A stretch of DNA of 21,829 nt from a virus, in the IMG/VR virus record IMGVR_UViG_3300005513_000031, positions 1 to 21,829 of that record; one strand, given 5' to 3'. Below, in pieces: positions 2,422 to 19,377 of this stretch. The notes beneath the pieces were generated by a model. The model did no database searches. It worked only from the letters and a program-made list of their open reading frames with translations, and was not told the origin of the DNA. The translations under genes and the position numbers were made by a program. Every line of letters starts with the position of its first letter. The stretch's first letter is position 1.

Positions 2422-2423
2422 CA

Positions 2424-2917: not shown

Positions 2918-3870
2918 GCTTACCGACATCTATGGCAGCAAAGCGGGCATCACTGGAAGCCCAAGAACAGACTCCGACTGCACCTACTCCGACACCGGAG
3001 CCGGTAGCCGAAGTAGCACCTACCTCGACAACGGAAGTGCAGCCAACTCCCGGTGAAGGTGAGCGAATCACAATTACCCGCACAGAGTTTAATGACCTAC
3101 AGGCAGCGGCAGGCAAGACCCGCGCCGCCGAGGGTCGGCTCGAAATGCTCAACATGGACATGGAGGCGATGCGGAAGCGCTTGACAGAGCTTGAGGACGC
3201 CTCTAAGGGTAATCCCAAGCCCAGCGCCCCGGCTGCAACGGCGGACGTTTGGGAGGCTCCCACCGTCGAAGGCGTGACCGAACAGGAGCAAGCAGATTAC
3301 GGCGAGTCGATCCCGCTAATTGAGAAAGTAGCTAAGCGTATCTGTGCGCAGATGATTAAGGAAATGCTGCCCACAGTCACTAGCAAAATCGATCAGGTGA
3401 AGTCGGTCGCAGAAAGTACAGCCGGTGCAGTCGTGAAGTCTACGGTAGATGCGTATACCGCAGCCGTAGCAGAAGAAGTCGGCAACATGGAAGAATGCGT
3501 CGAACACGAACACTGGCAAGCATTCTTAGAATCGTTTGATGACGACACAAGTTTGCAAGTTGGACAGCTTGTACGTAACCACATTGATAAGAAGAATATC
3601 AAGGGTATGGTTAAGCTGTTCGATAAGTTCAAGGCTAAGTACGGTGTGGGTACTCCCAAGCCGACTCAGACAGGCTACGAAGGAGCGAAGCCGGGTGGTG
3701 GTACAGCGGAAGCCGCGCCGCGACAGGAAGAACAAAAGCTCCCGTTTAGTAAGCGAAAGGAAGCCCACGATAAATACATCAAGGGCCAGATGGACGCTTC
3801 TGAATACGAGAAGATTAAAGACCAATACAACAAGGCCGACGCAGAAGGCCGAGTGGATTACAATAAGTAA
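2914..3870 (+). CDS. Scaffolding (capsid assembly) protein
   Basis: A 318-residue protein directly before the major capsid gene, close in length to the scaffolds of T7 (307) and P22 (303). Scaffolds guide coat proteins into a procapsid and then leave. The N-terminal 60 residues are a Pro/Thr/Glu-rich linker; residues 58-96 form a probable coiled coil; residues 133-245 are helical and include HWQAFLESFDDD at 200-211 followed by a charged helix, a pattern I associate with podovirus scaffolds. A Gly/Pro/Ala-rich linker at 246-275 leads to a strongly charged, Lys-rich C-terminal helix (280-318), as expected for the coat-binding end of a scaffold. The ATG overlaps the previous gene's stop by four bases. 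Assignment rests on position, length, charge and helical character. Confidence 0.8.
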   Translation: MSLPTSMAAKRASLEAQEQTPTAPTPTPEPVAEVAPTSTTEVQPTPGEGERITITRTEFNDLQAAAGKTRAAEGRLEMLNMDMEAMRKRLTELEDASKGNPKPSAPAATADVWEAPTVEGVTEQEQADYGESIPLIEKVAKRICAQMIKEMLPTVTSKIDQVKSVAESTAGAVVKSTVDAYTAAVAEEVGNMEECVEHEHWQAFLESFDDDTSLQVGQLVRNHIDKKNIKGMVKLFDKFKAKYGVGTPKPTQTGYEGAKPGGGTAEAAPRQEEQKLPFSKRKEAHDKYIKGQMDASEYEKIKDQYNKADAEGRVDYNK

Positions 3871-3887
3871 ATAACGGAGAGAATTAA

Positions 3888-4823
3888 ATGTCTATCCCTG
3901 CCGCAAGTGGTTACCCGCAATACAGCAATAGTCTCATCACCCCGCTTTTCCGCATGGACTTGCTGGAACGCTTCTACACGACTACGGTCTACAGCGATAT
4001 CTCCACCACGGAGTATACTGGCGACTTGCAGAAGGGTGGTGACCAGATTACCTTCATGCGTGAACCGAAGGTGATTGTTCGCGACTACGACAAGAACGGC
4101 AAGATTCAGCACGACACGATCGATGGCGAGCCGGTCACCATGACCATCGACTACGCCAAGACGTTCTCGATCAAGATGAACCATATCGACGAACGCCAGA
4201 TTCAGAACTTCGATAAGTGGAAGGCTGGTTTCCTGAAGTCGGCGGGTTACGAACTGACCCGTGCTATCGACCCGCAGTTGCTTACCGCAATGTGGACAGG
4301 TGTAGCTACCTACAATCAGGGCGCTACCGCAGGTCTGGTGTCTAAGAACATCAACTTGGGCGTAACAGGTACACCTGTTTCGGTGTCGTCTACTAACGTA
4401 GTGCTTGTGTTATCGCAGATTCATCAGGTGCTTGATGAAGCATTAGCTCCGCGCGATGGCCGCTTTATCGTACTCCCCTCAGTCGCACTTACGAGCATGA
4501 AGAACTCGGAACTGCGTCTGGCGTACGCTACCGGCCTCAGTGGTTCACCGATGGTGAATGGCAAGTTGCCTGATACCGTGGCGGGTTTCACGGTGCTGGA
4601 ATCGCAGAACGTCCCGAGCGTGATGGACGGTGCAAACCGTTGCTACCACATCGTGGCTGGTGTCAAGATGGCTACTGCCTTCGCAGCCCAGATCGAAGAT
4701 AGCCGTGTCGTTACCGATAAGGATGATTGGGCGAACTACTATCAGGGCCTCTCGGTCTACGGCTTTAAGGTGCTGTATGCCGACGCGCTGGTCCACCTGT
4801 ACGCCACCTTCACTGGTACCTAA
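3888..4823 (+). CDS. Major capsid protein (HK97-fold type)
   Basis: A 311-residue protein that would form the icosahedral shell. Near the N-terminus is a pattern common in podovirus coat proteins: FTTTVYSDI-like spacing in RFYTTTVYSDISTTEY, then GDQITFMREP, followed by a basic and acidic stretch fitting the HK97 E-loop region. Later parts include LDEALAPRDGRFIVLPS at about 185 and the C-terminal strand GLSVYGFKVLYADALVHLYA. The gene has a good Shine-Dalgarno (GGAG at 3876-3879, 8 bases before ATG) in a 17-base gap, one of the few gaps in the window, and a GC-richer, more regular codon choice than the portal, both fitting very high expression. Position after the scaffold agrees. The exact coat family cannot be settled by eye. 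Confidence 0.88.
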   Translation: MSIPAASGYPQYSNSLITPLFRMDLLERFYTTTVYSDISTTEYTGDLQKGGDQITFMREPKVIVRDYDKNGKIQHDTIDGEPVTMTIDYAKTFSIKMNHIDERQIQNFDKWKAGFLKSAGYELTRAIDPQLLTAMWTGVATYNQGATAGLVSKNINLGVTGTPVSVSSTNVVLVLSQIHQVLDEALAPRDGRFIVLPSVALTSMKNSELRLAYATGLSGSPMVNGKLPDTVAGFTVLESQNVPSVMDGANRCYHIVAGVKMATAFAAQIEDSRVVTDKDDWANYYQGLSVYGFKVLYADALVHLYATFTGT

Positions 4824-5634: not shown

Positions 5635-6336
5635 ATGAATACTGTGGGTGAATACATTACTCATGCTTCCTCCCAACTCAACGATCAGCGATATGGGCGC
5701 GCTTTCACTCGGTGGGGGCGCGCCCTTCTTTTGGACTACTTAAACCTCGCACTGGCCGAGATTGGTACTTACCGTCCTGAAGCTTTCGCAAACAGTGTCG
5801 TTGTAACGTTGGTTGAGGGGGCACTGCAAACGATTGATGGTAAGACCGCAGTTCAAACAGTCTACTCCAATGAGGACGGTAGCAAGATCGTTCCGATGGA
5901 TGAAGACTTGTCTAACGCATTCAGTGCGTATGACATCAATCCCCCAGATATTGCTTTCCGCAACGGCATGCCTCAATATAAGGTACGGTCGGCAGCGGTA
6001 ACGCAGAACAATGCGAATATGTTTATCGTTGACCCACCTGTGCCGCCGGGGTTATCCCCGAAGGTCAATGTGTGGGTCGATGGTATTACACCTAAGTACG
6101 ACTTGACCGATTGGGACAATACCCTTGAAGTTAATAGCAAGTACATCAATACTTGCCTAGACTTTATTATGGGTAAGGCGTTAGCACTTAATGCTGACTC
6201 CGTATCTTCCCAGCAGGAAAGCGAGAAATACTTTACTCGGTTCTACACCGTCATGGGCGTGAACTACCGCCAAGACGCTAAGTTCAAGAGTGGGTATTAC
6301 TTAGGCCAGACGGGCCAAGGTAATAGGACTAGCTGA
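5635..6336 (+). CDS. Probable head-tail connector / adaptor protein (first of two)
   Basis: A 233-residue protein after the capsid block with AAGAGGA at 5622-5628, 6 bases before ATG. The N-terminal helices (RWGRALLLDYLNLALAEI) followed by a beta-rich middle (VVVTLVEGALQTI, FIVDPPVP) and a helical C-terminus (DFIMGKALALNADSVSS, FTRFYTVMGVNYRQDA) match the layout of podovirus adaptors such as T7 gp11, which bind the underside of the portal ring. Those adaptors are usually 160-200 residues, so this one is slightly longer. The next gene seems to have the same layout. The stop overlaps the next start (TGATG). A terminator-like hairpin lies about 60 bases into the gene. The role is inferred from layout and position; sequence similarity to gp11 is not obvious by eye. 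Confidence 0.6.
   Translation: MNTVGEYITHASSQLNDQRYGRAFTRWGRALLLDYLNLALAEIGTYRPEAFANSVVVTLVEGALQTIDGKTAVQTVYSNEDGSKIVPMDEDLSNAFSAYDINPPDIAFRNGMPQYKVRSAAVTQNNANMFIVDPPVPPGLSPKVNVWVDGITPKYDLTDWDNTLEVNSKYINTCLDFIMGKALALNADSVSSQQESEKYFTRFYTVMGVNYRQDAKFKSGYYLGQTGQGNRTS
5695..5732 (+). terminator. Terminator-like hairpin inside a coding region, downstream of the capsid block
   Basis: A perfect 8-bp GC stem pairs GGGCGCGC (5695-5702) with GCGCGCCC (5718-5725) around a 15-base loop, followed by TTCTTTT (5726-5732). The position just after the capsid genes recalls the leaky terminator behind the T7 capsid gene. The arms also encode two Gly-Arg-Ala triplets, a direct repeat of a nearly palindromic word, so the structure could be a by-product of the protein sequence. 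Confidence 0.3.
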
Positions 6337-6974
6337 TGAATGGGTACAGTGTCGATACGCAGGACTTCGAGGAATTAATTAATCTCTCGACCCTGTTACG
6401 CCATGTGGTCGGTGTAGTGCCTAGCGTCCCGCATGCTATGGCGCTCGATCTTCTGCGCCAGAAGTTTATTGACTTCTGCGTACGTACGAAGATTATGACC
6501 GCAGAACTGGTGATGGATTACCAGTCAGGCGTGGTCGATTATCAGCTATGCGCGCCGGAAGGCTACCAAGTCTTTAGCATCGTAGGTATCGAAGGTGGGC
6601 ACTACGGCTACTACTGGTACGGCATGCAGCGCGTCGAATTCAAGCACAACTTCGATGTTATCGACAACAATGTTATCCGACTGCGCAGCGTGCCTAGCGT
6701 AGACCGTAAGTGTGGGCTAAAGGTCTTCGTGAACTTAATCCCCACCGACTTCGTGAACCAAATCCCTTTAAGTCTGGCTACACCGTATGGCCGCAGGATC
6801 GCGCTAGGTGTAGTGGCCGACTGCTTACGTATCCCGGGCAAAGACTGGACCAACCCACAGTTGGCGCAGTATTACGAACGCGAGTACGAAAAGGGCGTCT
6901 TAGATGCGCGCTCACTAGCAGGCACGAACCGACAGGTACGCAGTAATGACTTTAAGCCTGTGAGGATCGTATGA
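6336..6974 (+). CDS. Probable connector / adaptor-like protein (second of two)
   Basis: A 212-residue protein starting on the last base of the previous gene. It has an N-terminal helical region (ALDLLRQKFIDFCVRTKI), a beta-rich middle (VVDYQLCAPEGYQVFSIVGI, then VIRLRSVP) and a helical C-terminal end (PYGRRIALGVVADCL, then LAQYYEREYEKGVLDARSLA). This order mirrors the preceding gene and the gp11/gp4-type adaptor pattern: helices, beta domain, then a helical bundle with an arginine-rich tail. One of the two could be the portal adaptor and the other a head-completion or tail-closure protein. The stop overlaps the next ATG by four bases. The family is not recognised with certainty. Confidence 0.6.
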   Translation: MNGYSVDTQDFEELINLSTLLRHVVGVVPSVPHAMALDLLRQKFIDFCVRTKIMTAELVMDYQSGVVDYQLCAPEGYQVFSIVGIEGGHYGYYWYGMQRVEFKHNFDVIDNNVIRLRSVPSVDRKCGLKVFVNLIPTDFVNQIPLSLATPYGRRIALGVVADCLRIPGKDWTNPQLAQYYEREYEKGVLDARSLAGTNRQVRSNDFKPVRIV

Positions 6975-7315
6975 AGCTACCTTACGCGCATGTAAGCAAG
7001 AAGAACCCATTCTTGTACGTGGAAGCGGACTTTGATCCAACCACGATTCAGACGACCGGCGCAACTAATATCCAAGTGTATCGGGTGCAGAAGTTAGCGC
7101 AGTATTACACTAACTACCCGCCGTCTCCGATAGCACAGTACACGCCGTTAGAGTCCTGCAAAAATAAATTCACCTTCGTACTAGACGACCAGGTATTTAA
7201 CCAAAGCGGGGGTCGCTACGTCGCTAGGTTCTATTATCTGGGCACATTCGTCGGTGAGGTGCAATTCATCTACGATAAAATCCAGCCATACGTGGTAGGT
7301 AGCTCACATGTTTAA
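6971..7315 (+). CDS. Small beta-rich protein of the connector/tail region, unknown
   Basis: A 114-residue protein with aromatic and beta-strand character: FLYVEADF near the start, NIQVYRVQKLAQYYTNYPPS in the middle and FTFVLDDQVF and RYVARFYYLGTFVGEVQFIY towards the end. I see no signal peptide, membrane segment or known motif. It lies between connector-type proteins and the appendage genes, so it may be a small tail component. It overlaps the gene before it by four bases and the gene after it by eight. No function is assigned. Confidence 0.65.
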   Translation: MKLPYAHVSKKNPFLYVEADFDPTTIQTTGATNIQVYRVQKLAQYYTNYPPSPIAQYTPLESCKNKFTFVLDDQVFNQSGGRYVARFYYLGTFVGEVQFIYDKIQPYVVGSSHV

Positions 7316-7796
7316 GGCCCTTTACGGACTGTGCGGTGAGTTAACGGTAGCGCTTACATCGTTCGCAGCGACGATTACCGTTAATGATGAAATGCTGGCC
7401 AAGCTACGCTTGGCACTTCAAGGTAGTAACTACACGTTCCTAATAATCAAAACGTCTACCACATACGAAGTCGTCCGCACAGCCGGTTTTATTGGTAACA
7501 CTATCTCGGTAGTACGCGCACAGGATGGAACCACGGCGCAAGCGTTTCCGGTTAATACCGAGGTAGAATTCGTATTAGGTGATACTGCCATCGCGGATAT
7601 GATTAGCGAGCGCATGCTCGGACAGATTAATATCCAAGGTGCCGGTATTGTCCAAGTAACCCAGACAGGGACGAATAGCTACAGCATCTATGTACCGGAG
7701 ATTAGTATTACTTCGGACTCAGACAAGGTGCTAGTCGGCGGTGAGTTCCCCTCGTTCGTACTGTCTGCCCCGCTAACAAGTGGATGCTGTGATTAA
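7308..7796 (+). CDS. Short appendage protein: shared N-terminal module ending in Cys-Cys (paralogue A)
   Basis: A 162-residue protein that is almost only the shared module. Residues 1-100 match the N-terminus of three other appendage genes: a hydrophobic start, a variable beta strand set, a YEVVRTAGF/VVRAQDGTTAQAFPV segment, and then IADMISE. Residues 111-150 (GAGIVQVTQ, then a beta strand set) match residues 117-156 of the 14091 product, where the same GAGIV-VTQ motif is followed at the same distance by a Cys motif. The protein stops right after Cys160-Cys161-Asp. It may be a free docking or adaptor subunit for the appendages. The ATG overlaps the preceding stop by 8 bases. The function is inferred from the paralogy. 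Confidence 0.65.
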   Translation: MFKALYGLCGELTVALTSFAATITVNDEMLAKLRLALQGSNYTFLIIKTSTTYEVVRTAGFIGNTISVVRAQDGTTAQAFPVNTEVEFVLGDTAIADMISERMLGQINIQGAGIVQVTQTGTNSYSIYVPEISITSDSDKVLVGGEFPSFVLSAPLTSGCCD

Positions 7797-8715
7797 GAGA
7801 CTCTATCTCGCTAATGGAACACTGACAACACCGTTAGCGAGTACGTCCGAAGATATCGCCGTGGACAGTACGCTAGGGGCGTATCTGGCTGCGCAGCTCG
7901 ACGTAGGAGACTGGACATATCTAAGCCTTATGTGGCAGGATAAGGTAGAGATTATCCGACTGCATATGGAGTTTAGTGGGCTAGAAGTAGACCGTGGAAT
8001 TAATGGTCAGCGGCATTCGTACCCGGCTGGATCGGTAGTCAAATACCAATTGACCCAGCAAGAGATTCAGGATGCTACTAACAGCGCTCCACTGAACTTA
8101 TATGCTAGCGGCTATGGCGCAGCGACCGTAGATAACACAGGCAGCACATGGACTGTAGGCTACCCGACACTTACGACCCAGACGGTAGGCGGTATCGAAA
8201 CATACTACACCGATTTGGGCGAACTGGTTATTACGGATAAGATTGGCGCGTTCGGGTGTTGCGGCGAAGGGTTAGATGGCGCACCGGGGATCGATGGGCC
8301 GTTTTTCTACTTTACGTCGATGCTGTACCCACTTAATATCACGGACAGCGGCATTGATGGGATGCCACAGGGGCGAGCCAAAGACGGGCACCCGTTTAAC
8401 TGGCCCTTTGACTTCCAACTGCTGAACAAGTGGTTTACGCAAGTAGACATGCGTATAGCCGCAACGCTGACCGCAAAAGACTTTAATCTGTATGGTGGTG
8501 CCCATTCTTACGCGTTCTTGGATAAAGCGTACGCAACGATAGTAGTGGAAGACTCATTACTGTACGGCGCTAATCATACCTACGCAGCTACAGAAAACTT
8601 GTACTCGGACGCATACCCACTGTCTGCATTACTCTACGGCGGCGCAGTGACTTACTCCACTGATATAGACCAATTGTATGGTACTATATCTGTATCTAAT
8701 ATGACGGTAGCATAA
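7789..8715 (+). CDS. Appendage protein with shared N-terminal module and 24-residue repeats (paralogue B)
   Basis: A 308-residue protein. The start GTG at 7789 gives MIKRLYLANG, matching MKRAYLANG of the 10359 gene; an in-frame GTG at 7780 adds three residues. Residues 1-97 are the shared module (a VDRGINGQRHSYPAG segment, then IQDAT), and a beta segment ends in FGCCGEG (Cys157-Cys158), followed by a short Gly-rich collagen-like hinge (GLDGAPGIDG). Residues 175-220 are unlike the rest. Residues 233-304 are three 24-residue repeats, each starting with a LYG motif followed by a TY or SY. Such repeats fit a beta-helical or fibrous tip. It is probably part of the tail-appendage apparatus; the host-binding role is inferred. 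The gene overlaps the previous stop by 8 bases and the next ATG by one. Confidence 0.65.
   Translation: MIKRLYLANGTLTTPLASTSEDIAVDSTLGAYLAAQLDVGDWTYLSLMWQDKVEIIRLHMEFSGLEVDRGINGQRHSYPAGSVVKYQLTQQEIQDATNSAPLNLYASGYGAATVDNTGSTWTVGYPTLTTQTVGGIETYYTDLGELVITDKIGAFGCCGEGLDGAPGIDGPFFYFTSMLYPLNITDSGIDGMPQGRAKDGHPFNWPFDFQLLNKWFTQVDMRIAATLTAKDFNLYGGAHSYAFLDKAYATIVVEDSLLYGANHTYAATENLYSDAYPLSALLYGGAVTYSTDIDQLYGTISVSNMTVA
8485..8700 (+). repeat. Three tandem 24-residue (72-base) coding repeats
   Basis: Residues 233-256, 257-280 and 281-304 of the 7789 product each follow the pattern of a hydrophobic residue, LYG, Gly or Ala, a variable pair, then TY or SY, with aromatic residues in the second half. The copies diverge in DNA, so they are old or under selection for the protein pattern rather than recent duplications. 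Confidence 0.6.
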
Positions 8716-9776
8716 TGGGCAGAATAATTACCCCGGATCAAGCTCTCATTCTCCCGAAAGGTCCGCGCGGGTTTAATGCCGATGGCCTAGAGATACCCAC
8801 CGCCTATGCAGGTTTAGGTGGGCGCTACCGTATGCAGGTGCATAAAGCCAAGTCTGGTACGCTCAGCCATGACACAGGGTGGTTCAGCAATCTCATCACT
8901 AATACTGGCCTCGTCAATATGGCGACGGCTGGCATTATCAATGAGTGGGCAGCGGGTTGTGCGGTAGGTACAGGTAACACTACCCCCCAAAACACTGACA
9001 CACAGTTAGCTAACTACCTAACTAAAGTCGGTGCGCAGGGGTCGTACAACCCCGCAGGTATTATGAGTTATGTACCCCAGAACGGCTCAACGCCGCCTAT
9101 GTGGGTGCTGACGTACACCTTCGTTTTCCCGACAGGAGCAGCCGCAGGTAATCTGACTGAAATCGGTACATTCTCCCCGAATAACCCCACGGGGCAGTTA
9201 GCACTTACCAGTCGCGCACTCATCGTAGACTCTAATGGTAACCCGACGTCGATCACCGTACTGTCTAATGAAATTCTGACAGTCACGTATCAAATTCTGT
9301 TCTATCTGGACCCGACTGACCACGCGTTTACTTTCAACGTGAATGGTAGTCCGGTGACAGGTACGTACCGCATAATGAACATGGCGACGCCTACGGCGTG
9401 TTACTGGACCCTCCAGTCAAGCTCTGGCAGCAACGGCTACGCGTCTACGTATATCTATGTATACTCCGGCAACATGGGCATCAATACAGGCGCCCCAACA
9501 GGATCGAGTACAAGCTTTACATGCTATACCGGCAATTGCACGATGACGTTCGTAAACGATATCGTCAATTCCGATACCTGCTATGTGGATGTTCAGAACG
9601 TAACGTTTACGGCGACACAGGCCAATTACGCAGGCGGTATTAATTCCTTCTCGGCAGAAAGCCGCTTCCAGCGTATGCAGTTCGGTAACCTAAGCGCACC
9701 GATCAACAAGATCGCGGGACAGCAGCTTACTATGGGCTTCCGCTTCGCATGGGGCCGCTACCCAGCAGGTTCGTAA
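8715..9776 (+). CDS. Tail-fibre-like virion protein
   Basis: A 353-residue protein. Residues 56-70 (WFSNLITNTGLVNMA) match a motif often seen in phage tail-fibre proteins, where a tryptophan-Phe-x-Asn-Leu-Ile segment opens a beta domain covering roughly residues 35-200. The second half (200-353) is Thr/Ser/Asn-rich beta sequence with four cysteines (229, 270, 275 and 289) and a C-terminal INKIAGQQLTMGFRFAWGR. It probably forms part of the tail appendage, possibly a baseplate-like or fibre connector. The ATG overlaps the previous stop by one base (TAATG) and there is a single base before the next gene. I do not recognise a precise family. Confidence 0.65.
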   Translation: MGRIITPDQALILPKGPRGFNADGLEIPTAYAGLGGRYRMQVHKAKSGTLSHDTGWFSNLITNTGLVNMATAGIINEWAAGCAVGTGNTTPQNTDTQLANYLTKVGAQGSYNPAGIMSYVPQNGSTPPMWVLTYTFVFPTGAAAGNLTEIGTFSPNNPTGQLALTSRALIVDSNGNPTSITVLSNEILTVTYQILFYLDPTDHAFTFNVNGSPVTGTYRIMNMATPTACYWTLQSSSGSNGYASTYIYVYSGNMGINTGAPTGSSTSFTCYTGNCTMTFVNDIVNSDTCYVDVQNVTFTATQANYAGGINSFSAESRFQRMQFGNLSAPINKIAGQQLTMGFRFAWGRYPAGS

Positions 9777-9777
9777 T

Positions 9778-10362
9778 ATGGCGATGCCTAATAATTCGTT
9801 GTCCCAGATCGCCATTAAGTACACATGGCGCGGGCGCGACACACAAGACCCTACGGACCTACAGGACACCGAAGAAGGCGGCGTCGCACTCAATAACACG
9901 TCGATGGGGCTTGAGTACCAGCTATGGACGTTTACGTATGATGCCCATTACGCCTACGTCAATGCACCTAATCAACCGAAGATCGCTCTGTTCGCTAAGG
10001 ATGGCATAGAGAACATCAGAGGATGCTTCGACCAGAACATGAACCCCTTCGTGGCGTTCTTTCAGGGCGGTCAATGGCAATACTGGTGGTATGATACCGT
10101 GTCGTCGGGGATGGTGTTTAGTTCCCTGCCCGTAGGAGTTACTTCGGTAGCATGCACCTTAGACGACAAACGGCAGATAAACTCCAATACATCGGACATT
10201 CTACTGTTCTATACCAACAACGGAAATCTATATCACCGTAGACAGCGCGACCGATACACCGCCGAACTACTCGTTCGGGCCGGAGTGGGCGGCACGCTAG
10301 TCAAGGTCGGTATGAACGGTATTCAACGACTACAGATTAAGATGCAGACGCCCCCACTATGA
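9778..10362 (+). CDS. Virion structural protein of the tail-appendage cluster
   Basis: A 194-residue protein. A central beta region (QPKIALFAKDGIENIRGCF, NPFVAFFQGGQWQYWWYD) is followed by SDILLFYTNNGNLYHRRQRD, a segment I associate with phage structural proteins that carry a propeller-like or blade-like domain. The WQYWWYD stretch and paired arginines look like an exposed sheet and a positively charged edge. It overlaps the following gene by four bases (ATGA). An in-frame ATG at 9784 is an alternative start two residues shorter. The gene has a normal codon pattern and no break with the 8715 gene. It is likely a tail or appendage subunit; no activity is proposed. Confidence 0.65.
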   Translation: MAMPNNSLSQIAIKYTWRGRDTQDPTDLQDTEEGGVALNNTSMGLEYQLWTFTYDAHYAYVNAPNQPKIALFAKDGIENIRGCFDQNMNPFVAFFQGGQWQYWWYDTVSSGMVFSSLPVGVTSVACTLDDKRQINSNTSDILLFYTNNGNLYHRRQRDRYTAELLVRAGVGGTLVKVGMNGIQRLQIKMQTPPL

Positions 10363-10910
10363 AGCGCGCTTATCTCGCTAATGGATACCTTGTTCAGCCG
10401 CTTAGCGAGAAAGGTTACGTCGCTACAGTGGACGCGGCAACGTGGCTGTACTTAAATACGTTGCTGGGCACGGACTACTGCTACCTAGTCATCGCTGGCA
10501 GGGAAGTTGTCAAAGTCCTTGGGCTACAGGCGACCAATCAGGTTCTATTGCAGCGCGGACTAGAAGGCACGCATCGGAAGACATGGATTGCAGGCCGGTC
10601 TATTAAGTACGGACTCACATGGTCAGAAGTACAGGACGCTACAACGTACATAGGGTATACCCTTAATGTAAGCGGCGGCGTGTCATGGGATGGAGTTAAT
10701 ATCTTCTACCCCGAACTGAACTTACTAGGTATAGGCGGCATCACATGCGATGGCACGTATATTGATGATATCCCCGATAATGTAGGGTGCTGCATTAGTA
10801 CCGAGCCGCCATCGATCCCGCTGCAATACTTACCACTACGTCAAGTGTATTTGACAGGCGCATTTGACTACAGAATTACAGATTCAGGCGATTATAGGGT
10901 GTATCAATAA
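10359..10910 (+). CDS. Appendage protein with shared N-terminal module (paralogue C)
   Basis: A 183-residue protein starting MKRAYLANG and closest to the 7789 product. The shared module runs to about residue 95: EVVKVLGL, LLQRGLEGTH, then VQDAT in the position of IQDAT. A beta segment (INIFYPEL-like VNIFYPEL, then GGITCDG) ends in VGCC (Cys144-Cys145). The last 38 residues (YLPLRQVYLTGAFDY, ITDSGDYRV) recall part of the 7789 product after its hinge (ITDSG occurs in both). There is no long tip, so it may be a short adaptor or stalk subunit of the same apparatus. It overlaps its neighbours by four bases upstream and one downstream. Confidence 0.65.
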   Translation: MKRAYLANGYLVQPLSEKGYVATVDAATWLYLNTLLGTDYCYLVIAGREVVKVLGLQATNQVLLQRGLEGTHRKTWIAGRSIKYGLTWSEVQDATTYIGYTLNVSGGVSWDGVNIFYPELNLLGIGGITCDGTYIDDIPDNVGCCISTEPPSIPLQYLPLRQVYLTGAFDYRITDSGDYRVYQ

Positions 10911-11491
10911 TGGGTAAGTACATCAGTGATCTGCCTGCGAAAACTCCACTGGTAGGTTCGGAGTTAATTGAAATACAAGACGGTGCCGGTAGCGGCTCTA
11001 GTAAGCACGCGACCGTGCAAGACGTGGCCAATTTATTTGAGCCGGCCTACCCCGTCTCGTCCGTCAATGGGCAGACCGGAGCGGTTGCTCTAACCGCAGA
11101 TAACGTCCCCGAAGCGACACCGACACCGACCAATAAGTATTACACGACTAAGCGCAACGCGCAGAGTCCGGTTAATGCGCTTGCGATTGTGGCGGGCGTC
11201 GTTACGATTGACTGTTCACTAGGTTCGTATTTCACGTTGCTGCTTAATGCCAACGTGACTAGCATCGTGTTCGCCAATCTGCCAGCGGCGGGGATCGGCC
11301 AGACCATCGCTATCCGCATGCAGCAGGACGCCACCGGAAACCGCACGGTTGCGCTTCCAAGCGCCTTCAAGGCCACCACGGGTAGTCTGTCCTCCCCGGT
11401 CGCCACGGCGGCGCTCTACACCCTTCTGATGGCGACGACGTTCGATCAGGGCACCCGCTGGGAATACACCATGCAGGGAGTAGCTTCGTGA
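10910..11491 (+). CDS. Tail-fibre-type protein with an exchanged high-GC C-terminal domain
   Basis: A 193-residue protein. Residues 5-40 (ISDLPAKTPLVGSELIEIQD, then TVQDVANLF) and residues 49-66 (VSSVNGQTGAVALTADNV) are motifs that recur in many tailed-phage fibre proteins, the first near N-termini that attach to the virion and the second before the tip. Residues 114-187 form a beta domain (VTSIVFANLP, IAIRMQQDATGNRTVALPS, TRWEYTM) of a kind common in fibre tips. The DNA for residues about 124-184 is 68 % GC, well above its surroundings, suggesting that this domain came in from another source. The protein probably belongs to the appendage apparatus. It overlaps the next gene by four bases (GTGA). 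Confidence 0.75.
   Translation: MGKYISDLPAKTPLVGSELIEIQDGAGSGSSKHATVQDVANLFEPAYPVSSVNGQTGAVALTADNVPEATPTPTNKYYTTKRNAQSPVNALAIVAGVVTIDCSLGSYFTLLLNANVTSIVFANLPAAGIGQTIAIRMQQDATGNRTVALPSAFKATTGSLSSPVATAALYTLLMATTFDQGTRWEYTMQGVAS
11281..11460 (+). other. High-GC island within the fibre gene
   Basis: Hand count gives 122 G or C in 180 bases (68 %), against 47 % in the 60 bases before (11221-11280), 53 % in the 60 after (11461-11520) and 43 % at 12361-12420. Codons shift to GCC, CTG and ATC. The segment covers most of the C-terminal fibre domain. Confidence 0.6.
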
Positions 11492-14091
11492 TCGGATTGC
11501 TCGCGCACACAGCCTTATACCTGGCAATTACCGGAACCGTACCCGTCGATTTAGGCGACGCGCAGTGGTCGAATACCGCTGCGCTTTTGCATTGCGAGAC
11601 GAATACCTATACGCATAAAGCGCTTATACGCGCAGATCAGCCGAACAATACGACGACGTTTACCGACGAAACAGGTAATACGTGGACGGCAGGTGGTACA
11701 GCTAAGATCGTTACCACTAATAAAAAGTATGGCATGAGTTCCATGTACTTCGATGGATCGGTGAACTGCTGCTATACTGGCCCGACTAACTTCGTAGGTA
11801 TCGGTACTCAAGACTTTACATTCGAGGCATGGGTCTACCCGACTAAGGTACAAGATACTACAGCAGTCGATGCTAACGACCGCTGGATTTTCGGCGGCTG
11901 GAATACAGCGAATGGATGCTTCGTGGTGTTCTTAGGTAGCCAGAACTACCAGCTACAGTTATGGGATGGATATAACGCGAACAAGTCTATCGTCGCTGTC
12001 CGCCCGTTCATGTGGAACCATGTCGCTATCGTACGTAAGTCCAACACACTCTACTTTTTCGTCAATGGAGTGTTAGGCAATACCATCGCGAACTATACAA
12101 CCAGTTTCGTAAACCAGACCGGCACATGGATCGGCGGTGAGAAGGGCGTTAGTAGTCGATGGTTCTCTGGCTATATCGACAGCGTTCGCTGGATCACAGG
12201 CACGGGGCTGTACACCACAGACTTTACACCTCCACTGCGCGAGTTTGATTACACGGTAGCTAAGCCGACGGACGAAGTAGGTAACCGCTGGAACCTGAGC
12301 GGCTCGTCGTCGCATGTCTATCCTAGCCCTACATGGAAAATGTTTGGGTCTACCTCGTACTATTTCGATGGTGCAGGTACTAATTACCTGTATACCACAG
12401 ACGTAGCGGCGCTTAATTCTTCGGATTACACAGTAGAAGGATTCTTCTGCTTAGACCAACTTAGTACGTCATACATCAGAACCCTATGGTCTAACTACGA
12501 TGGCAACCAATCTCACGGCAGAATCTTACTAACGGTTAGTACAAATAATACTCTCAACTTCGGAGAGCAGGATTCCAACGGCAATAATAGCTCCGGCGGC
12601 AATACTACAGTTACCGTAGCCGCTAACACGACGTACCATTTCGCCTGCGTTAAACAAGGTACGACATGTACACTGTACTTAAATGGTGTAAATGTATTAC
12701 AGTTTACATCGGTGGCGCGTACTCAATATACGAATATGCTAACACTAGGTATATTCGACTACACATCGGGAACGTATAATTACCCATATAAAGGTTATAT
12801 TGATGAGGTTCGCGTGTCGCGCTTTGCGCGGTATACCGCGAACTTCGTCGTGCCCGCACAACAGTTCTCCAACAAAGGCAAGACTGCCGCATTGCTGCAT
12901 TTCGATGGCGCAAACGGTAGTACCGTATTCAATGACGATATCGGGTCTACGTGGACGGCTAATGGTTCGGCAGCGCTTAGCACTGCGCAGCAAAACTTTG
13001 GGCCATCGTCGGGCTACTTCGATGGGGCGAGTGGGTATATATCTACGCCCGCAGCGAATGACTTTAATCTGACAAGCGGGGACTGGACAGTAGAATGTAA
13101 TTTCTACTGCACTGCGCTAACTTCGGGCAGCCAAAGTCTTATCGACAAAGACGGCACGTTCGGCAGATCGTTCGCGCAATACGACCTATCCATCAGTTCT
13201 ACTGGTAAGCTGCTAGCTACCATAGGTACAGGCAATGGCACAGGCTACCAACAGACGATAACAGGAACGACGACTGTAACGCTCAATACGTTCCACCATA
13301 CCGCAGTCGTACGGTTAGGATCAACGTTCTACCTATACCTTGATGGCGGGCTAGAAGGCTCCTTAGCAATCACGGGTACCATGGCCGAAGGCAGTAAACC
13401 ATTACTGGTGGGCTACCAGACAGGACAACCTACAGCGGTAAGGTTTAATGGCTACATAGACGAACTACGCATCGTAAAGGGTGAAGCGAAATATCGCACC
13501 CAATTCTTGCCGCCTATCCGCGCGCATCTGGCGGACGCGAGCAATGCGGTGTATGCTTTCTCCGACGACTACACCACCGGGTCGCTGGGGAATTACCTCG
13601 ATCTTGCTAGCTCGCCAGTTACCACTTGGACATATGGCGCAGGCCAGTTAATCGCAGTCCACGGTACGGGAAGTAGTGAAGCGGCTAAGCTCTATAATGG
13701 ATTACGGGCCACAGATTTCCGTGTCGATTGGACTATGACACAGGCGGACGATTCTGGCGTAGCTGTACGGTATCAGGACATTAATAACCGTTATGTAGTT
13801 GCCTGCTACGATAACTCGTCCAGTGAAGGTAGTGCGTCGTACAGTCGAGTCACGGTTTATCGTGTTGTTGCTGGTACGGCTACTCAGATCGGCACGAGCA
13901 CCATTCCAACATGGACACGCGGAGTCGCTACTAACTTCACGGCTACGATTAGCGGCAACTTAATTACGGTTTACGTCAATGGTACACAATACCTGAGTAT
14001 CACAGATAGTACGCCGTGGTCTGGATTAGGTAGGTGCGGTCCTCGTATCTACACGGGTCAGAGTAACTATACTAAATATAAGGTGCAGTAA
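11488..14091 (+). CDS. Large multi-domain lectin-like (LamG/concanavalin-type) virion protein
   Basis: An 867-residue protein with a GTG start, AGGGAG 7 bases upstream. It has three clear LamG/concanavalin-like jelly-roll domains of about 200 residues: 31-250, 262-460 and 466-676. Each carries the family landmarks of a YFDG strand near the start (87, 291, 510), a VEGF-like or FEAWVYP strand, a YLNG or FVNG turn and a closing GYID with VR or LR (228, 436, 655). Residues 690-867 appear to be a fourth beta-sandwich (SDDYTTGSLGNYLD, DFRVDWTMTQADDSGVAVRY) of a related shape. These folds usually bind sugars, so a role in binding a host glycan is likely but unproved, and no catalytic motif is seen. 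Domain 1 has Cys94-Cys95 and a roughly 13-residue insertion near its start. The first 15 residues are hydrophobic. Confidence 0.85.
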   Translation: MIGLLAHTALYLAITGTVPVDLGDAQWSNTAALLHCETNTYTHKALIRADQPNNTTTFTDETGNTWTAGGTAKIVTTNKKYGMSSMYFDGSVNCCYTGPTNFVGIGTQDFTFEAWVYPTKVQDTTAVDANDRWIFGGWNTANGCFVVFLGSQNYQLQLWDGYNANKSIVAVRPFMWNHVAIVRKSNTLYFFVNGVLGNTIANYTTSFVNQTGTWIGGEKGVSSRWFSGYIDSVRWITGTGLYTTDFTPPLREFDYTVAKPTDEVGNRWNLSGSSSHVYPSPTWKMFGSTSYYFDGAGTNYLYTTDVAALNSSDYTVEGFFCLDQLSTSYIRTLWSNYDGNQSHGRILLTVSTNNTLNFGEQDSNGNNSSGGNTTVTVAANTTYHFACVKQGTTCTLYLNGVNVLQFTSVARTQYTNMLTLGIFDYTSGTYNYPYKGYIDEVRVSRFARYTANFVVPAQQFSNKGKTAALLHFDGANGSTVFNDDIGSTWTANGSAALSTAQQNFGPSSGYFDGASGYISTPAANDFNLTSGDWTVECNFYCTALTSGSQSLIDKDGTFGRSFAQYDLSISSTGKLLATIGTGNGTGYQQTITGTTTVTLNTFHHTAVVRLGSTFYLYLDGGLEGSLAITGTMAEGSKPLLVGYQTGQPTAVRFNGYIDELRIVKGEAKYRTQFLPPIRAHLADASNAVYAFSDDYTTGSLGNYLDLASSPVTTWTYGAGQLIAVHGTGSSEAAKLYNGLRATDFRVDWTMTQADDSGVAVRYQDINNRYVVACYDNSSSEGSASYSRVTVYRVVAGTATQIGTSTIPTWTRGVATNFTATISGNLITVYVNGTQYLSITDSTPWSGLGRCGPRIYTGQSNYTKYKVQ

Positions 14092-15503
14092 TGGCACTCA
14101 AAATTCTCTACACCCGCGTTCAAGGGTCGCTTACAGCAAACATTTCGGCAGCAGCAACTTTACTGCCCGTGGATGCGACAACCCTTGCGGTACTCACTGC
14201 CCAAGTAAACTTTGCGGGCGGCGATTGGACGTACTTAACACTGACTAACGGTATCTATTCCGAAGAAGTCAAAGTCACAGGATTAAGTACGACTAATCTC
14301 GTTGTGACCCGTGCATGCTCCGGGTCTACGGCGCAGATATTCGCCGCCAGTAATACGTCGCTCTACGACCATGTAGGCGCAGATGCGATCAAGGATATTA
14401 TTGCAGCTAACCCGTCGCCATCCAGCGTCACCGTAGGCGGTGCGGGTATTGTTGCAGTGACCCAGCCGACGACAGGCAATTATGTCGTCAATGTGTCTAC
14501 GCCTACCTTTAACGGCGACAACGGCGTAGCGGTCACAGGCAACTGGCCTAACTACACTATCTCCTATGAAGGCTCGGGGGATGGATGCGGTTGCGGCGGT
14601 GGGTCCAGCAGCGGTGGCGGGGTCGATACCCTCGTCCTTGAGAGTAGCATCCTCACGGGCAATATCACAGGCGATACACTTACCTTAAATCTGCCTGCCC
14701 CGACGTTCACGGGCACAGGTGGCGTTACCGTGTCCGGTAGCTGGGCCACCGGCTTCACTATCGCAGGCGCAGGCGCAGGCGGTACAGGCACCGTGCAGTC
14801 GGTCAGCGTGGGCGCAGGCTTGACGCTGGCGGGTACGCCAACCGTTAATCCTACCATCAGTCTTAGTAATACAGGTGTTACCCCCGGCACTTTCGGCGGT
14901 ATTACCGTCAATGCGCAAGGTCAGATCACCAATATTGCAAGCGGATTCGCGCCGGTATACGGCATCACCATGTCCAATGGTGGTACGGTCACCGAAGTGG
15001 CTAATGTCGCAAATATTACGCTTAATGTCGCCGCAGTCGGTGTCCAAGGTATCGTAGAATTGGCGGACAGCAGTTCGCCATTCAATGCGAACGAAGACAC
15101 CATGGCGGTCACTTCAAAGGTGGTGTCGCAGGCTATTAGTGCACTGTCTGCCACGCTGTTAGGCGGCACGCAGACGGCCGGTGAATCGGCATCTAGCTAT
15201 ACAAATGCCGTAGCATCTACAGCCATGTCGCTGAACCTTAGTAGCAGCCAGAAGTGCTTGCTGATCGGTGAGATTCAGGTGATCGATAGTGGCGGCTCAA
15301 CCGTCCCAAGCTATGGCGTGTGCATCATCGCCACCGATGCGACTGTGTACTTTAGCTCTCGCATCACACAGCAAGGCAAGCAAACGTTCGTCGCGCTACT
15401 GTCCGGTGTCACTGTCTCGTCTAAGACCATCGGCATTTCGACAACCGCGCTCTCTGGAACGCAGTCAGTAGCTACAGCCACCCTTGCAGCGATCATTGTC
15501 TAA
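14091..15503 (+). CDS. Tail-fibre protein with shared N-terminal module and C-terminal head domain (paralogue D)
   Basis: A 470-residue protein. Residues 1-105 are the shared module (DWTYLTL, EEVKVTGL, VVTRACSGSTAQIF, IKDII); residues 117-158 match the 7308 product and end in GCGC (Cys166, Cys168) followed by a Gly/Ser linker. A second, related beta repeat runs over residues 197-224, 66 residues further on. Residues 233-290 (VQSVSVGAGLTL, GTFGGITVNAQGQITNI) and 318-350 (VQGIVELADSSSP, AVTSKVVSQAI) are typical fibre shaft motifs. The last 95 residues (SLNLSSSQKCLLIGEIQVID, YGVCIIATDATVYF) look like a compact beta-sandwich tip. This is the best candidate for a receptor-binding fibre. It overlaps both neighbours by one base. 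Confidence 0.78.
   Translation: MALKILYTRVQGSLTANISAAATLLPVDATTLAVLTAQVNFAGGDWTYLTLTNGIYSEEVKVTGLSTTNLVVTRACSGSTAQIFAASNTSLYDHVGADAIKDIIAANPSPSSVTVGGAGIVAVTQPTTGNYVVNVSTPTFNGDNGVAVTGNWPNYTISYEGSGDGCGCGGGSSSGGGVDTLVLESSILTGNITGDTLTLNLPAPTFTGTGGVTVSGSWATGFTIAGAGAGGTGTVQSVSVGAGLTLAGTPTVNPTISLSNTGVTPGTFGGITVNAQGQITNIASGFAPVYGITMSNGGTVTEVANVANITLNVAAVGVQGIVELADSSSPFNANEDTMAVTSKVVSQAISALSATLLGGTQTAGESASSYTNAVASTAMSLNLSSSQKCLLIGEIQVIDSGGSTVPSYGVCIIATDATVYFSSRITQQGKQTFVALLSGVTVSSKTIGISTTALSGTQSVATATLAAIIV
14481..14762 (+). repeat. Two related beta repeats inside the fibre
   Basis: Residues 131-158 and 197-224 of the 14091 product align with a 66-residue offset: PTFNGDNGVAVTGNW against PTFTGTGGVTVSGSW. 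Ten of nineteen positions from 134 to 152 are identical. The Cys-x-Cys and Gly/Ser linker lie between the two copies. Confidence 0.55.
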
Positions 15504-17329
15504 TGGCAAGTATACGGATCACGACATTCGGCGGCATTAATACGGAAGTAGCCGCCCGTAATTCTGAACCTAATATTGCTACAGTAGCGCATAATTGCCT
15601 ACTGTGGGATGGCACACTGCGGCCCACCGCTAAGTGGCAGAGTAACCAAGGCGGACTTAATCAGCGGTATACGCTTGAGTTCGACGGGACCAATCTCTAC
15701 ACCATTAACCTAGAACGCGCGCAGTTAATGAAGACTGCGCAGTACGTCAAGGGTACAGTCATTGGACTTAATCCCTTCGTCGTTGATAATGACCGGTCGA
15801 ATATATGCTACCAGAACGCATATACACAGATCGACCAAGTGGTTGAAGTGGGGGTAACCCCGCCGGTAGTTTCAACCTACTCCGGCATCGCCTATACCCG
15901 ACAGTTCGCATCGAACAAGCCCGTGAGCAAGCTTTACGCTTGCTCACTGGTGCGCAACAACAATGGCCGTCTCGAAGAATCTCCTTTAGCGCTTATACCC
16001 CAACAAGACCCCAATGCGCAGCTATATGAAGGCGACACGGCTACACTCACTGTACGTATCAGTGACGCGCCTGTACGTGAGAATTGTTACCTCCGAATTT
16101 ATCGGGCCATGTCTAGCCTTGATACAGGCCATGCAGTAGAGAATAAGTTCGATACCGAGTGGTACTTAATCGCGGAAGTGAAAACCTACGTCGCCTTCTT
16201 GGGCGGCGTCTTCCGCGAGTACGTCTACATCGATACCGCGTCAGTAACGAATAACCCGCTGGACTTATATTTGGCGGGGCACTTCTACGCACCTAATGCA
16301 CTGACCTATAACTTCCTGACGCAGACCGAAGGTGGATGGTTAGTCGCAGCGACGACGGATGGTCAGATGACTATCTCCGAGCGCTACATGACGCATGCGT
16401 GGCCGACTGAGAATATCCAAGGTATTCCCGGCACCATTACCGACATGAAGTCCTCGTACGATAACGTCTATATCGGCACGACCGGCAAACCCTATATCGC
16501 CTCGCTAGCCATGGGTGAAGGTGGGCTACAGGTAGGTATCAAACCCTTCCACGAAGACTACGCCTGCCTACCGGGAACCATGACTAAGGCCGCTGGTGGC
16601 GTACTGTACGCGTCGGCGGCAGGTGTCGTATCCTTAAACCAAGACGGCATGCGCCTCGTGACAGCGGGCGTGGCCAGTGGCATCCGGCCCCTGTACCATG
16701 CGGAGTACACAGACACTTCGGTTACGCCCAACGTAGACGCATGTACTGACGTTAACTTCGCAGACACTACTTACGGCACGTATTTCCGAGGGACGTATTT
16801 CGGATTTATGAATCCGCCGATTAATGGCGGCTTGACTTTATCCATCGGGTATATGTTCGATACCGGGTCCAGTATCGATGGTTCGCATCCCATTGCCCGA
16901 TTAAGTACGTTCGACTATCCGGCGGGCAAGGTACTGTCTAGCGTCATCACAAATGATGGTATGGCGGTACTGGCAAATAATGCGGTATGGACTATGCCGC
17001 TGCCGAACATGCCTAATAAGAATAGCTACGCCCAAGCAGCAAAGAACTGCTATGTGTGGCGAAGCAAGAAATACGTATTCCCGGGCCTCACAACCTTTGG
17101 TGCGCTCAAGGTAGTGCATAAGTGTGACGGGTTTGTCCGGGTTAAGGTTTACTGTGACGAGGTTTGCGTATACGACACTAACGTACCCAGCAACAAGCCG
17201 CTGACTTTACCGCCGAGCATCGTGGGTATAGAATGGCAGCTTGAAGTGCATGGCAACGCTACCGTCCACGAAATTCACATGGCGTCGTCTACGACAGACC
17301 TAATCGAACAAAAGGCAATGACACAATGA
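15503..17329 (+). CDS. Tail nozzle / tubular protein B-type protein
   Basis: A 608-residue protein. The opening (FGGINTEVAAR, then VAHNCLLWDGTLRPTAKW) and the ending (LTLPPSIVGIEWQLEVHG, then VHEIHMASSTTDLIE) are patterns I associate with podovirus tail nozzle proteins, where an early asparagine-rich 'N..L..G.LRP' segment and a late 'LP....WqvEv.G' segment flank a beta-propeller-like body. The middle has repeated beta strands (TEGGWLVAATTDGQ, YDNVYIGTTGKPYI, GGVLYASAAGVVSL) fitting that body. Nozzle proteins form a hexamer under the adaptor and the DNA exit. It is shorter than T7 gp12 (794). It follows the appendage genes and precedes the internal proteins, as expected. The overlap with the next gene is four bases (ATGA). 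Confidence 0.72.
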   Translation: MASIRITTFGGINTEVAARNSEPNIATVAHNCLLWDGTLRPTAKWQSNQGGLNQRYTLEFDGTNLYTINLERAQLMKTAQYVKGTVIGLNPFVVDNDRSNICYQNAYTQIDQVVEVGVTPPVVSTYSGIAYTRQFASNKPVSKLYACSLVRNNNGRLEESPLALIPQQDPNAQLYEGDTATLTVRISDAPVRENCYLRIYRAMSSLDTGHAVENKFDTEWYLIAEVKTYVAFLGGVFREYVYIDTASVTNNPLDLYLAGHFYAPNALTYNFLTQTEGGWLVAATTDGQMTISERYMTHAWPTENIQGIPGTITDMKSSYDNVYIGTTGKPYIASLAMGEGGLQVGIKPFHEDYACLPGTMTKAAGGVLYASAAGVVSLNQDGMRLVTAGVASGIRPLYHAEYTDTSVTPNVDACTDVNFADTTYGTYFRGTYFGFMNPPINGGLTLSIGYMFDTGSSIDGSHPIARLSTFDYPAGKVLSSVITNDGMAVLANNAVWTMPLPNMPNKNSYAQAAKNCYVWRSKKYVFPGLTTFGALKVVHKCDGFVRVKVYCDEVCVYDTNVPSNKPLTLPPSIVGIEWQLEVHGNATVHEIHMASSTTDLIEQKAMTQ

Positions 17330-17841
17330 CGGACATTGGCACAACAGTAAGGGAACGGCTGCAAAAGCATACGGAGCAGGACGACAATATCCGTAAAATC
17401 CTGATGAAGCACATGGAGCTAGACGACGATAAGAAGGAGAAGAATGCAGGGTACTATGCGTGGGGACTGCATGCCGTTGAGTGCGGTGTCCAGATCGCTA
17501 ATATTCTGCTCGCTGCTAAGCACCCGGAATCCGGTCGCGGCCTACGTGCCTTGCAGGACTTGACCTACGGACTTAATGGCAACGACTTCTGGAATAAGAA
17601 TGCTCCGGCGTTGATGCCCATTATTACCGTAGCGTTGAATGCCCAGAAAGATTGGGTGGACCTAACAATCCGCCACAAAGAACTGGACGAGTACGCAGGC
17701 TACGACAAGCTGCTTTCGGGCGCACAGGCCGTGGCATTAGAAGTCTTCTCGATGCTGCTTTACATGACCGGCGGTCCCTTGCTCCTTGGTACGGTCAGCG
17801 TCAATCTCAAGATCGACCTAGCCCCTTATTTCGTGAAGTGA
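17326..17841 (+). CDS. Helical virion protein, probable internal/ejection component
   Basis: A 171-residue protein with a charged N-terminal helix (RKILMKHMELDDDKKEKN), a middle with hydrophobic helices (VECGVQIANILLAAK) and a strongly hydrophobic stretch at about 132-159 (AVALEVFSMLLYMTGGPLLL) followed by a short tail. Proteins that leave the capsid with the DNA in podoviruses (for example T7 gp14 and P22 gp7) are often helical and able to enter membranes, so an ejection role is reasonable. It is not a holin by layout, having one clear hydrophobic stretch and lying far from the spanins. It is separated from the next gene by a single base. Confidence 0.6.
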   Translation: MTDIGTTVRERLQKHTEQDDNIRKILMKHMELDDDKKEKNAGYYAWGLHAVECGVQIANILLAAKHPESGRGLRALQDLTYGLNGNDFWNKNAPALMPIITVALNAQKDWVDLTIRHKELDEYAGYDKLLSGAQAVALEVFSMLLYMTGGPLLLGTVSVNLKIDLAPYFVK

Positions 17842-17842
17842 C

Positions 17843-18613
17843 ATGGCAACAGCGAGCTTCGTAACTGACTTGACGGAAGTGCTGACACAGGCCGTAGAAG
17901 CTGCGGCAGGTATCGGCTCGCTTATTTCCGGCTTCAAGAATGTGTCGCTAGCTCGCAGTTACTATAACCTGTACAACACGCAGCGCCAGTATTACTACGC
18001 CACCTTCCAGCAAGGTGTGGAGAAGCCGCTGGCCGCAGCCACGTATACCGATCCGTACTACAACCTAAACTACGCAGGCCGTATAGCTACGCTGTACGAT
18101 CCGAACAGCGGCCCATTAGGTGGGTCGAGTACGGATATCGCAGGCTGGTGGAGCCGGCATGGGGCGATGTACGCCACCGCGCCTGACCCCTTAATCGTTG
18201 AATTAAATACGGACACCGCACGCCTTCAAGTGGATTGGGCAAACTACTTATTTCGGTTTGAGGAATTGTGGTTCGATATCCGCAACGATACTCGCTGGGC
18301 GAAGCGTCTAGCGGTACACAACATCGGTATCAAGCAAGGAAATGCGATATCCCATGCGCTCGATTATAGTCTTAGCAACTACCAAGATAACATCGTTGAT
18401 ATGGCGAGCCAGCTTGCGACATATGGGAATGGCATCGCTAAGTACGCAGGATATAAACGCGGACTTAATGATGTATCGACGCAGTTCCAGACTAACGGAG
18501 GCTACCAAGATAAGCCTTCGCCGTTCCGGTTCGATATCGACGCACAGGCTAAGTCATCCGCGAACGCTAATGCGTGGCAGGGAGCGCCGTTCTTAATCGA
18601 CGGTGGACAGTAA
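17843..18613 (+). CDS. Internal virion protein, paralogue of the next gene
   Basis: A 256-residue, Ala/Tyr/Asn-rich, mostly helical protein. Two stretches match the next gene: residues 34-56 (SLARSYYNLYNTQRQYYYAT) and residues 150-213, where KRLAVHNIGI and YGNGIAKYAGYKRGLND line up with RKLAVANIGL and IGNGFAAHAGYQDGRDN. Position between the nozzle protein and the hydrolase suggests an ejected inner-core protein, as in T7 gp14 to gp16, but I do not recognise the family. The N-terminal 30 residues contain a small-residue, hydrophobic helix (AAAGIGSLISG) that could interact with a membrane. It overlaps the next gene's start by one base. Confidence 0.65.
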   Translation: MATASFVTDLTEVLTQAVEAAAGIGSLISGFKNVSLARSYYNLYNTQRQYYYATFQQGVEKPLAAATYTDPYYNLNYAGRIATLYDPNSGPLGGSSTDIAGWWSRHGAMYATAPDPLIVELNTDTARLQVDWANYLFRFEELWFDIRNDTRWAKRLAVHNIGIKQGNAISHALDYSLSNYQDNIVDMASQLATYGNGIAKYAGYKRGLNDVSTQFQTNGGYQDKPSPFRFDIDAQAKSSANANAWQGAPFLIDGGQ

Positions 18614-19377
18614 TGGCCGCTAATCAACTTGGCATAGACACACCTGCACCTTATCGAAGCTTAGGCCAGTTCGGCTATAGCTCGGGCGCAGGTATGCAGA
18701 CGTTCGGTGCAGACGGTGCTTTCGTGGCCCAGACGTCTATGTCTATCGATAAAGGCGGTATGCGTGGTCTAGGTCTGCTAGCCATGGCTATCGCAGAATA
18801 CGAATTAAAGTCCAAGGCGATTGATTTAGCGCAGGACTACTACAACTTAAATAAGCAGGACTACGCGTTCTTCCAGAGCACGCATCAAGGGCCAATTTCA
18901 CAGACCGCCCAAGAAGCAATGTCCTCGACGACGAATCCTACTTATAACTACGACTACTATGCGTCCGCTCCGGGCGGTATCGCGAGCGTACTAGCCAATA
19001 CAGAACGCCAGTGGTTTGAGTCACGTCGCCGCACGTCAAAGTATAATATCGGCGTCCAACGCCGACTTGACTACGACATGGCGGTGGCTCGCGCACATAC
19101 TGTCATCGCAGGCTGGAACGCAGGTAGTCGCTACGAACTTAATTGGGCCGATGCCCACAATAACCGTGCTAACGACCGCAAGTTGGCTGTAGCTAATATC
19201 GGTCTAGGTATCGGCGCGATTGTCCGCCAAGGTATGGCCGCAAGTGTGACGCGGCTCGCTAGTAGCTACGACGCTATTGGCGATACCGTGGCAAGCATCG
19301 GTAATGGCTTTGCAGCGCACGCTGGCTATCAAGATGGCCGCGACAATACAAGAACCCGTATAAACGGAGTCGGCTAA
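18613..19377 (+). CDS. Internal virion protein, paralogue of the previous gene
   Basis: A 254-residue protein. The ATG at 18613 sits on the previous stop (TAATG); an in-frame start at 18574 would overlap the previous gene by 40 bases and adds residues unlike the family, so it is rejected. The N-terminal 50 residues are Gly/Ser/Thr-rich, followed by a helical core with the hydrophobic segment GLGLLAMAIAEYEL. Residues 69-91 and 183-248 match the preceding gene as described there. The region 141-190 is helical and arginine-rich. Two similar subunits side by side suggest a mixed ring or tube in the internal core. It overlaps the next ATG by one base. Confidence 0.68.
   Translation: MAANQLGIDTPAPYRSLGQFGYSSGAGMQTFGADGAFVAQTSMSIDKGGMRGLGLLAMAIAEYELKSKAIDLAQDYYNLNKQDYAFFQSTHQGPISQTAQEAMSSTTNPTYNYDYYASAPGGIASVLANTERQWFESRRRTSKYNIGVQRRLDYDMAVARAHTVIAGWNAGSRYELNWADAHNNRANDRKLAVANIGLGIGAIVRQGMAASVTRLASSYDAIGDTVASIGNGFAAHAGYQDGRDNTRTRINGVG

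Follow-up and report, generated by a model that had tools for sequence, protein, structure and literature searches.

The window analyzed here is a 21.8-kb virus contig; another contig, of 62,203 bases (G001), encodes identical proteins in the fibre region. The window contains four genes, designated A to D, whose products begin with a homologous stretch of about 145–168 residues that ends in each case in CC or CxC (Table 1). Beyond this module the ends differ from one paralogue to the next: A has nothing further, B continues with 24-residue repeats, C with a short Pro-rich tail, and D with a β fibre and a head. The positions of the four genes and of their paired cysteines in the preliminary description, which was made from the sequence alone, are correct, and the shorter resemblances that it pointed out, a YLANG start and a YPxL segment common to B and C and a GAGIV-VTQ segment common to A and D, are indeed present. 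The GTG start codon of B is overlapped by the last 8 nt of A (7789–7796). None of the four products belongs to an accepted Pfam family.

Table 1. Fibre genes, cysteine motifs, and flanking tail genes in the window
Feature	Position	Strand	Description	Basis
Tail adaptor homologue	5635..6336	+	8jov chain 2	Via Bcep22-like DC1/JC1; direct match E 0.9
Tail adaptor homologue	6336..6974	+	gp81 of GP4, 8jov_G, 12 chains	E 2.6e-6
A, 162 aa	7308..7796	+	Docking domain 1–101, β unit 107–153, C-terminal GCCD; no distal part	Model pLDDT 84, 8jov fold
A Cys160-Cys161 codons	7785..7790	+	TGC TGT
B, 308 aa	7789..8715	+	Docking module, FGCC, short Gly-X-Y-like stub, three 24-residue repeats	hhalign
B Cys157-Cys158 codons	8257..8262	+	Retained in 6 of 7 genomes; GCLS in G003
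B collagen-like stub	8269..8304	+	GLDGAPGIDGPF, directly after the Cys pair	Direct reading
B repeats	8485..8700	+	Three 24-residue protein repeats (LLYGGAxxY...)	Direct reading
Genes 8715 and 9778	8715..10362	+	Two further fibre-type genes between B and C, without the docking module	phrog_4176 E 1e-56, phrog_4950 E 7e-48 (tail fiber protein)
C, 183 aa	10359..10910	+	Docking module, VGCC, ~38-residue Pro-rich tail	hhalign
C Cys144-Cys145 codons	10788..10793	+	Orthologues GCLC, GCC, GCGC, GCAA, GCSN
Genes 10910 and 11488	10910..14091	+	Fibre-type gene and lectin-like gene between C and D	PF13385 E 3e-51, four stretches, LamG/ConA-like
D, 470 aa	14091..15503	+	Docking module, GCGC, Gly/Ser linker, β fibre, C-terminal head
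D Cys166-Gly-Cys168 codons	14586..14594	+	Orthologues GCCAGC, GCC, GCC, GCGC
Tail nozzle homologue	15503..17329	+	8jov_A, 6 chains	E 6.5e-7; DC1/JC1 homologues

The 867-residue product of the lectin-like gene (11488–14091) has several LamG/ConA-like stretches and, near its C terminus, a match resembling 3-keto-disaccharide hydrolases; at the same place there is a gene with LamG-like sequence and a SPRY domain in the relative L004 and an apparently unrelated gene in L005. Downstream of the fibre region, three late virion-type genes (17326, 17843, and 18574; 17326–19377) gave no PHROG match at E 0.01, and a late gene contains a transglycosylase-like domain (20231–20959; PF06737, E 2e-7), to judge from which its product is probably a cell-wall-degrading ejection protein.

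Homology among the four modules

Comparison of family profiles with hhalign gave a match for all six pairs of modules, with E values of 2e-19 (A-B), 1e-12 (A-C), 8e-23 (A-D), 9e-33 (B-C), 1e-17 (B-D), and 2e-13 (C-D), the A-C alignment being limited to residues ~1–100. Single-sequence tblastn searches against relatives connected A with D (31%, E 6e-13), B with C (33%, E 5e-14), and B with D (E 1.5e-5). The N-terminal module proposed from inspection to be common to the four proteins is therefore borne out by profile comparison. In A5, an alignment of 27 module sequences that covers the window and its relatives, Glu54 and Arg70 (A numbering) are invariant, and Lys3, Gly10, Tyr44, Leu45, and Cys160 are present in at least 90%. 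In a tree of the docking domain, the A copies make up a single branch relative to the other groups, as do the D copies, and a further branch unites B and C; the L005 copies of B and C branch early, so that the boundary between these two groups is blurred at that point. These alignments and the tree show that the four modules are paralogous.

The same set of four, when sought in related genomes, was found as exactly four module copies in each of the five near-complete relatives of ~62–64 kb (G001–G004 and G009), and each of two shorter relative contigs has three copies before its end. The more distant pair L053/L054 has a single copy, located in a D-like protein of 489 residues; in the 54-kb contig L054 this protein (8001–9461) has a single motif Cys and also a second, repeated β unit. 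C and D had no tblastn match in the phage collection, where the sole match of A was Aeromonas phage phiA008, and a search of TM3_14A, phiM6, and MQM1 found no module copy. No relative turned up when genome contigs were scanned with the A family, and thus no prophage copy was seen.

Fold of the docking domain and identity of its neighbours

By every method, the top solved structure for the module is chain 1 of 8jov, the tail fibre of Ralstonia phage GP4. The A5 profile matches 8jov_1 with an E value of 7.5e-10 over profile positions 4–98. The AlphaFold2 model of A, made from a 27-sequence alignment, has a mean pLDDT of 84, with values of ~95 over residues 1–101, ~75 over the β unit (107–153), and 34 over the Cys tail, which is disordered in this monomer model. 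The GP4 fibre is also the top Foldseek match of the model (E 2.9e-5), and structural comparison (VIA) superimposed the two with a Z score of 13.6 over 108 residues at 2.9 Å, spanning residues 2–111. The next structural matches were the tail tip of phage Chi (Z 9.8) and unrelated barrels (Z about 6); those to F1-ATPase and similar structures were taken as a common small β-barrel arrangement. Many predicted viral "tail fiber" proteins match too, and together with the 8jov match this identifies the N-terminal domain as a known and widespread fibre-docking domain. Residues 1 to ~100 of A–D are therefore not a new module but have the tail-docking fold of the GP4 fibre, and the identity of the four proteins as docking fibres is very highly probable. 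The likeness to the GP4 dock includes the fold, detectable sequence homology, and homologous adaptor and nozzle genes as neighbours, but the profile match ends at about residue 100, and the β unit and Cys motif of the window proteins have no sequence match to the GP4 chain. It should be noted that the GP4 fibre query sequence was read from the profile alignment, with its first letters filled in, and that the listed matches begin at query residue 6, the edge of the real sequence.

The 8jov structure is the portal-tail complex of GP4, with 18 fibre chains, 12 + 12 adaptor chains, and 6 nozzle chains; the names adaptor and nozzle are used here on the basis of the numbers of chains and of the general anatomy of podophages (PMC11784390). 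Homologues of both components flank the fibre genes in the window and in the Bcep22-like phages DC1 and JC1, and the DC1 homologue of gene 15503 matches 8jov_A with an E value of 2e-243. The window thus has the GP4-type partners, two adaptors and a nozzle, the assignment of gene 5635 being indirect, through DC1/JC1. The portal and capsid profiles of the window match HMO-2011, TM3_14A, phiM6, MQM1, and CHOED and not DC1/JC1, and a Bcep22-type portal and capsid, as in Lessievirus, were not found with these profiles. The head genes (379–4823) are HMO-2011-like, whereas the tail genes (5635–17329; adaptors, nozzle, and fibre docks) are Bcep22/GP4-like, and by these resemblances the phage appears to be a mosaic of head and tail. 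The source is probably a podophage of an uncultured lineage with a tail of the GP4/Bcep22 type, in which A–D would be paralogous tail-fibre (adhesin) subunits.

Exchange of the distal parts

In L005, the B protein (8482–10119) keeps the module and the CC pair but has a C-terminal part of ~390 residues in place of the 24-residue repeats; this part has weak Ig/PKD-like matches and, by eye, propeller-like repeats. The swapped end, together with the paralogy of the modules and their GP4-type fold, supports the earlier suggestion that a docking unit was duplicated and that its ends can be exchanged. In the window B protein the Cys pair is followed by a collagen-like stub, in which the pattern G-A-P..P-G-P is retained in L004, L051, and L052. 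In the model of D only residues ~365–470 are confident. This region bears a resemblance to TNF/C1q-like trimeric lectin heads, with middling Z scores (best 8.8), and its structural matches include the A-1(L) short fibre and the cyanophage A4 tail complex. The N-terminal half is of low confidence and was too weak in the full-length model for comparison with A.

The cysteine motif

The preliminary description made its reading depend on conservation of the Cys positions among close relatives. Such conservation is seen for the first Cys, found in 26 of the 27 modules, but the second is missing in 5 (22/27), and A of G003 has neither. In the same genome, B and C have one Cys each and D keeps both (CC); C of G004 and the D-like proteins of L053/L054 also have one. 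On these losses the motif, and any clamp that it forms, is dispensable. Elsewhere in the module bodies Cys accounts for only 0.6% of residues, and the Cys codons alternate between TGC and TGT among relatives with the residue kept, as at Cys160 of A. A CC or CxC at residues 95–230 was found in 0 of 74 distinct docking-domain ORFs from outside the lineage; as they come from loci that matched A in searches, these ORFs are not a random sample. The sequences therefore portray the Cys motif as lineage-specific and favoured but not essential.

A by-product of the overlap with the B start codon was considered as the origin of the CC pair of A and rejected: only codon 161, where G003 has Ser (AGT), is partly tied to the GTG, Cys160 lies outside the overlap and is kept through synonymous change, and in B, C, and D no gene overlap comes near the Cys codons.

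The losses in G003 and G004, the partial overlap of the A motif with the B start codon, and the low pLDDT of the Cys tail would all be expected if the cysteines formed no bond in the virion and were an inherited, mildly favoured feature of the linker or had a transient role in a folding intermediate. We consider this unlikely, however, in view of the retention of the first Cys throughout four deeply separated paralogous groups whose Cys codons vary synonymously, the rarity of Cys in the rest of the modules, and the absence of CC or CxC at this place in the 74 ORFs from outside the lineage.

The spacings CC, CxC, CLC, and CCAGC, at the end of the shared β unit, would suit metal ligands, and a trimer might use its six cysteines to hold a metal ion or iron-sulfur cluster by which the root of the fibre is stabilized. 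His or Cys metal ligands are present in some phage central spikes and in tail-tip protein L. Yet the distance between the cysteines differs freely from one orthologue to the next, several copies have a single Cys, no additional conserved ligand, Cys or His, was seen near the motif, and no solved structure of a relative extends to it; metal binding is accordingly given a rather low probability.

Discussion

The Bcep22-like phages (Lessievirus) are a close parallel to the arrangement in the window. Fibre genes with the dock number four in DC1, BcepIL02, and CSP3 and three in Bcep22, JC1, and BcepMigl, and in DC1 and JC1 they lie as a set with adaptors upstream and a nozzle-type gene directly downstream. 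When DC1 and JC1 were used as controls for the presence of three to four dock-sharing fibre genes per genome, as observed in G001–G004 and G009, all of their annotated fibre genes had the docking domain (E 7e-12 to 3e-17) and none had CC or CxC. The Bcep22-like paralogues form a branch separate from the window lineage, so that the two expansions look independent. The authors of the CSP3 study regarded multiple fibre genes as a unique feature of that phage group (PMC10269572), and GP4 has three fibre types according to the title of Zheng et al. 2023 (J Mol Biol 435:168258), as cited in PMC11784390. One dock with exchangeable tips is therefore a known plan, carried in three or four genes by Bcep22-like phages, and the new part is the Cys motif.

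These comparisons also bear on the earlier idea of a branched adhesion apparatus of a kind not described before, which is not supported: phages with three to four same-dock fibre genes, or with three fibre types, are already on record, and nothing was found that points to cross-links between A, B, C, and D. In such an apparatus the cysteines would cross-link the four different proteins or other parts of the tail. The motif is present in each of A–D; A, with nothing beyond it, could be a partner; and in Agrobacterium phage Milano disulfides also join the short tail fibre to the baseplate wedge (PMC10811340). Against this, the four proteins have not lost the motif together (D of G003 has CC and A none), the single Cys of gene 6971, directly upstream of A, is not retained in relatives, and the GP4 and Bcep22-like fibres use the docking domain with no Cys motif seen. 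We give cross-linking between different proteins a low probability.

A disulfide role within each fibre is plausible. The shared N-terminal domain would dock each of A–D next to the adaptor and nozzle of the tail, with the short β unit following the dock and the CC or CxC at the end of that unit, where three chains would pass from the shared to the distal part. We infer that the fibres are trimeric and that all four are carried on one virion; a trimer would gather six cysteines at the end of the module, and inter-chain disulfides, formed after the virion has left the reducing cytoplasm, could clamp it at its axis and fix the register of the chains, the ends beyond the clamp being exchangeable. 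Because the motif lies at the module end, a trimer would bring six cysteines together, and a precedent exists in Milano, a disulfide clamp at the exchange junction seems the best reading of the cysteines, although taken by itself we hold it to be evenly balanced between right and wrong. Its dispensability in relatives, the pLDDT of 34 for the Cys tail, and the overlap constraint on codon 161 of A count against it, as does the assembly of phage proteins in a reducing cytoplasm. The explanation as a whole, paralogous docked fibres with an inter-chain disulfide clamp before exchangeable tips, is somewhat favoured. A more specific version, in which three CC/CxC motifs form a covalent disulfide knot at the junction of tip exchange, so that any tip could join a standard docking trimer without a trimerization domain of its own and A would be a bare clamped dock, is more speculative and we regard it as doubtful.

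Type III collagen has a cysteine knot in which adjacent Cys residues of three chains lie beside the Gly-X-Y triple helix, and B has a short Gly-X-Y-like stub after its CC pair. The stub consists of only about four triplets, however, is imperfect in relatives, and has no counterpart in A or D, so that this is an analogy and not kinship. The Milano precedent is the trimeric tailspike gp124, which has the inter-subunit disulfides C24-C24, C24-C26, and C26-C26 near its N-terminal tail-binding module (PMC10811340). A–D, as putative receptor-binding proteins, likewise have their CC or CxC adjacent to a tail-binding module, and the CxC near such a module in a trimeric receptor-binding protein is the point of likeness; in Milano, though, the motif is at the N-terminal edge of the module as opposed to the C-terminal edge here, no homology is claimed, and the disulfides of the window proteins are putative.

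The present analysis ties genes of an uncultured podophage lineage to the solved tail machine of GP4, which makes the position at which their fibres are mounted predictable. It also marks a natural junction of fibre-tip exchange, next to a small CC/CxC feature that may explain how trimeric register is maintained when tips are swapped, and A, as a stand-alone dock of 162 residues, would be a convenient laboratory model.
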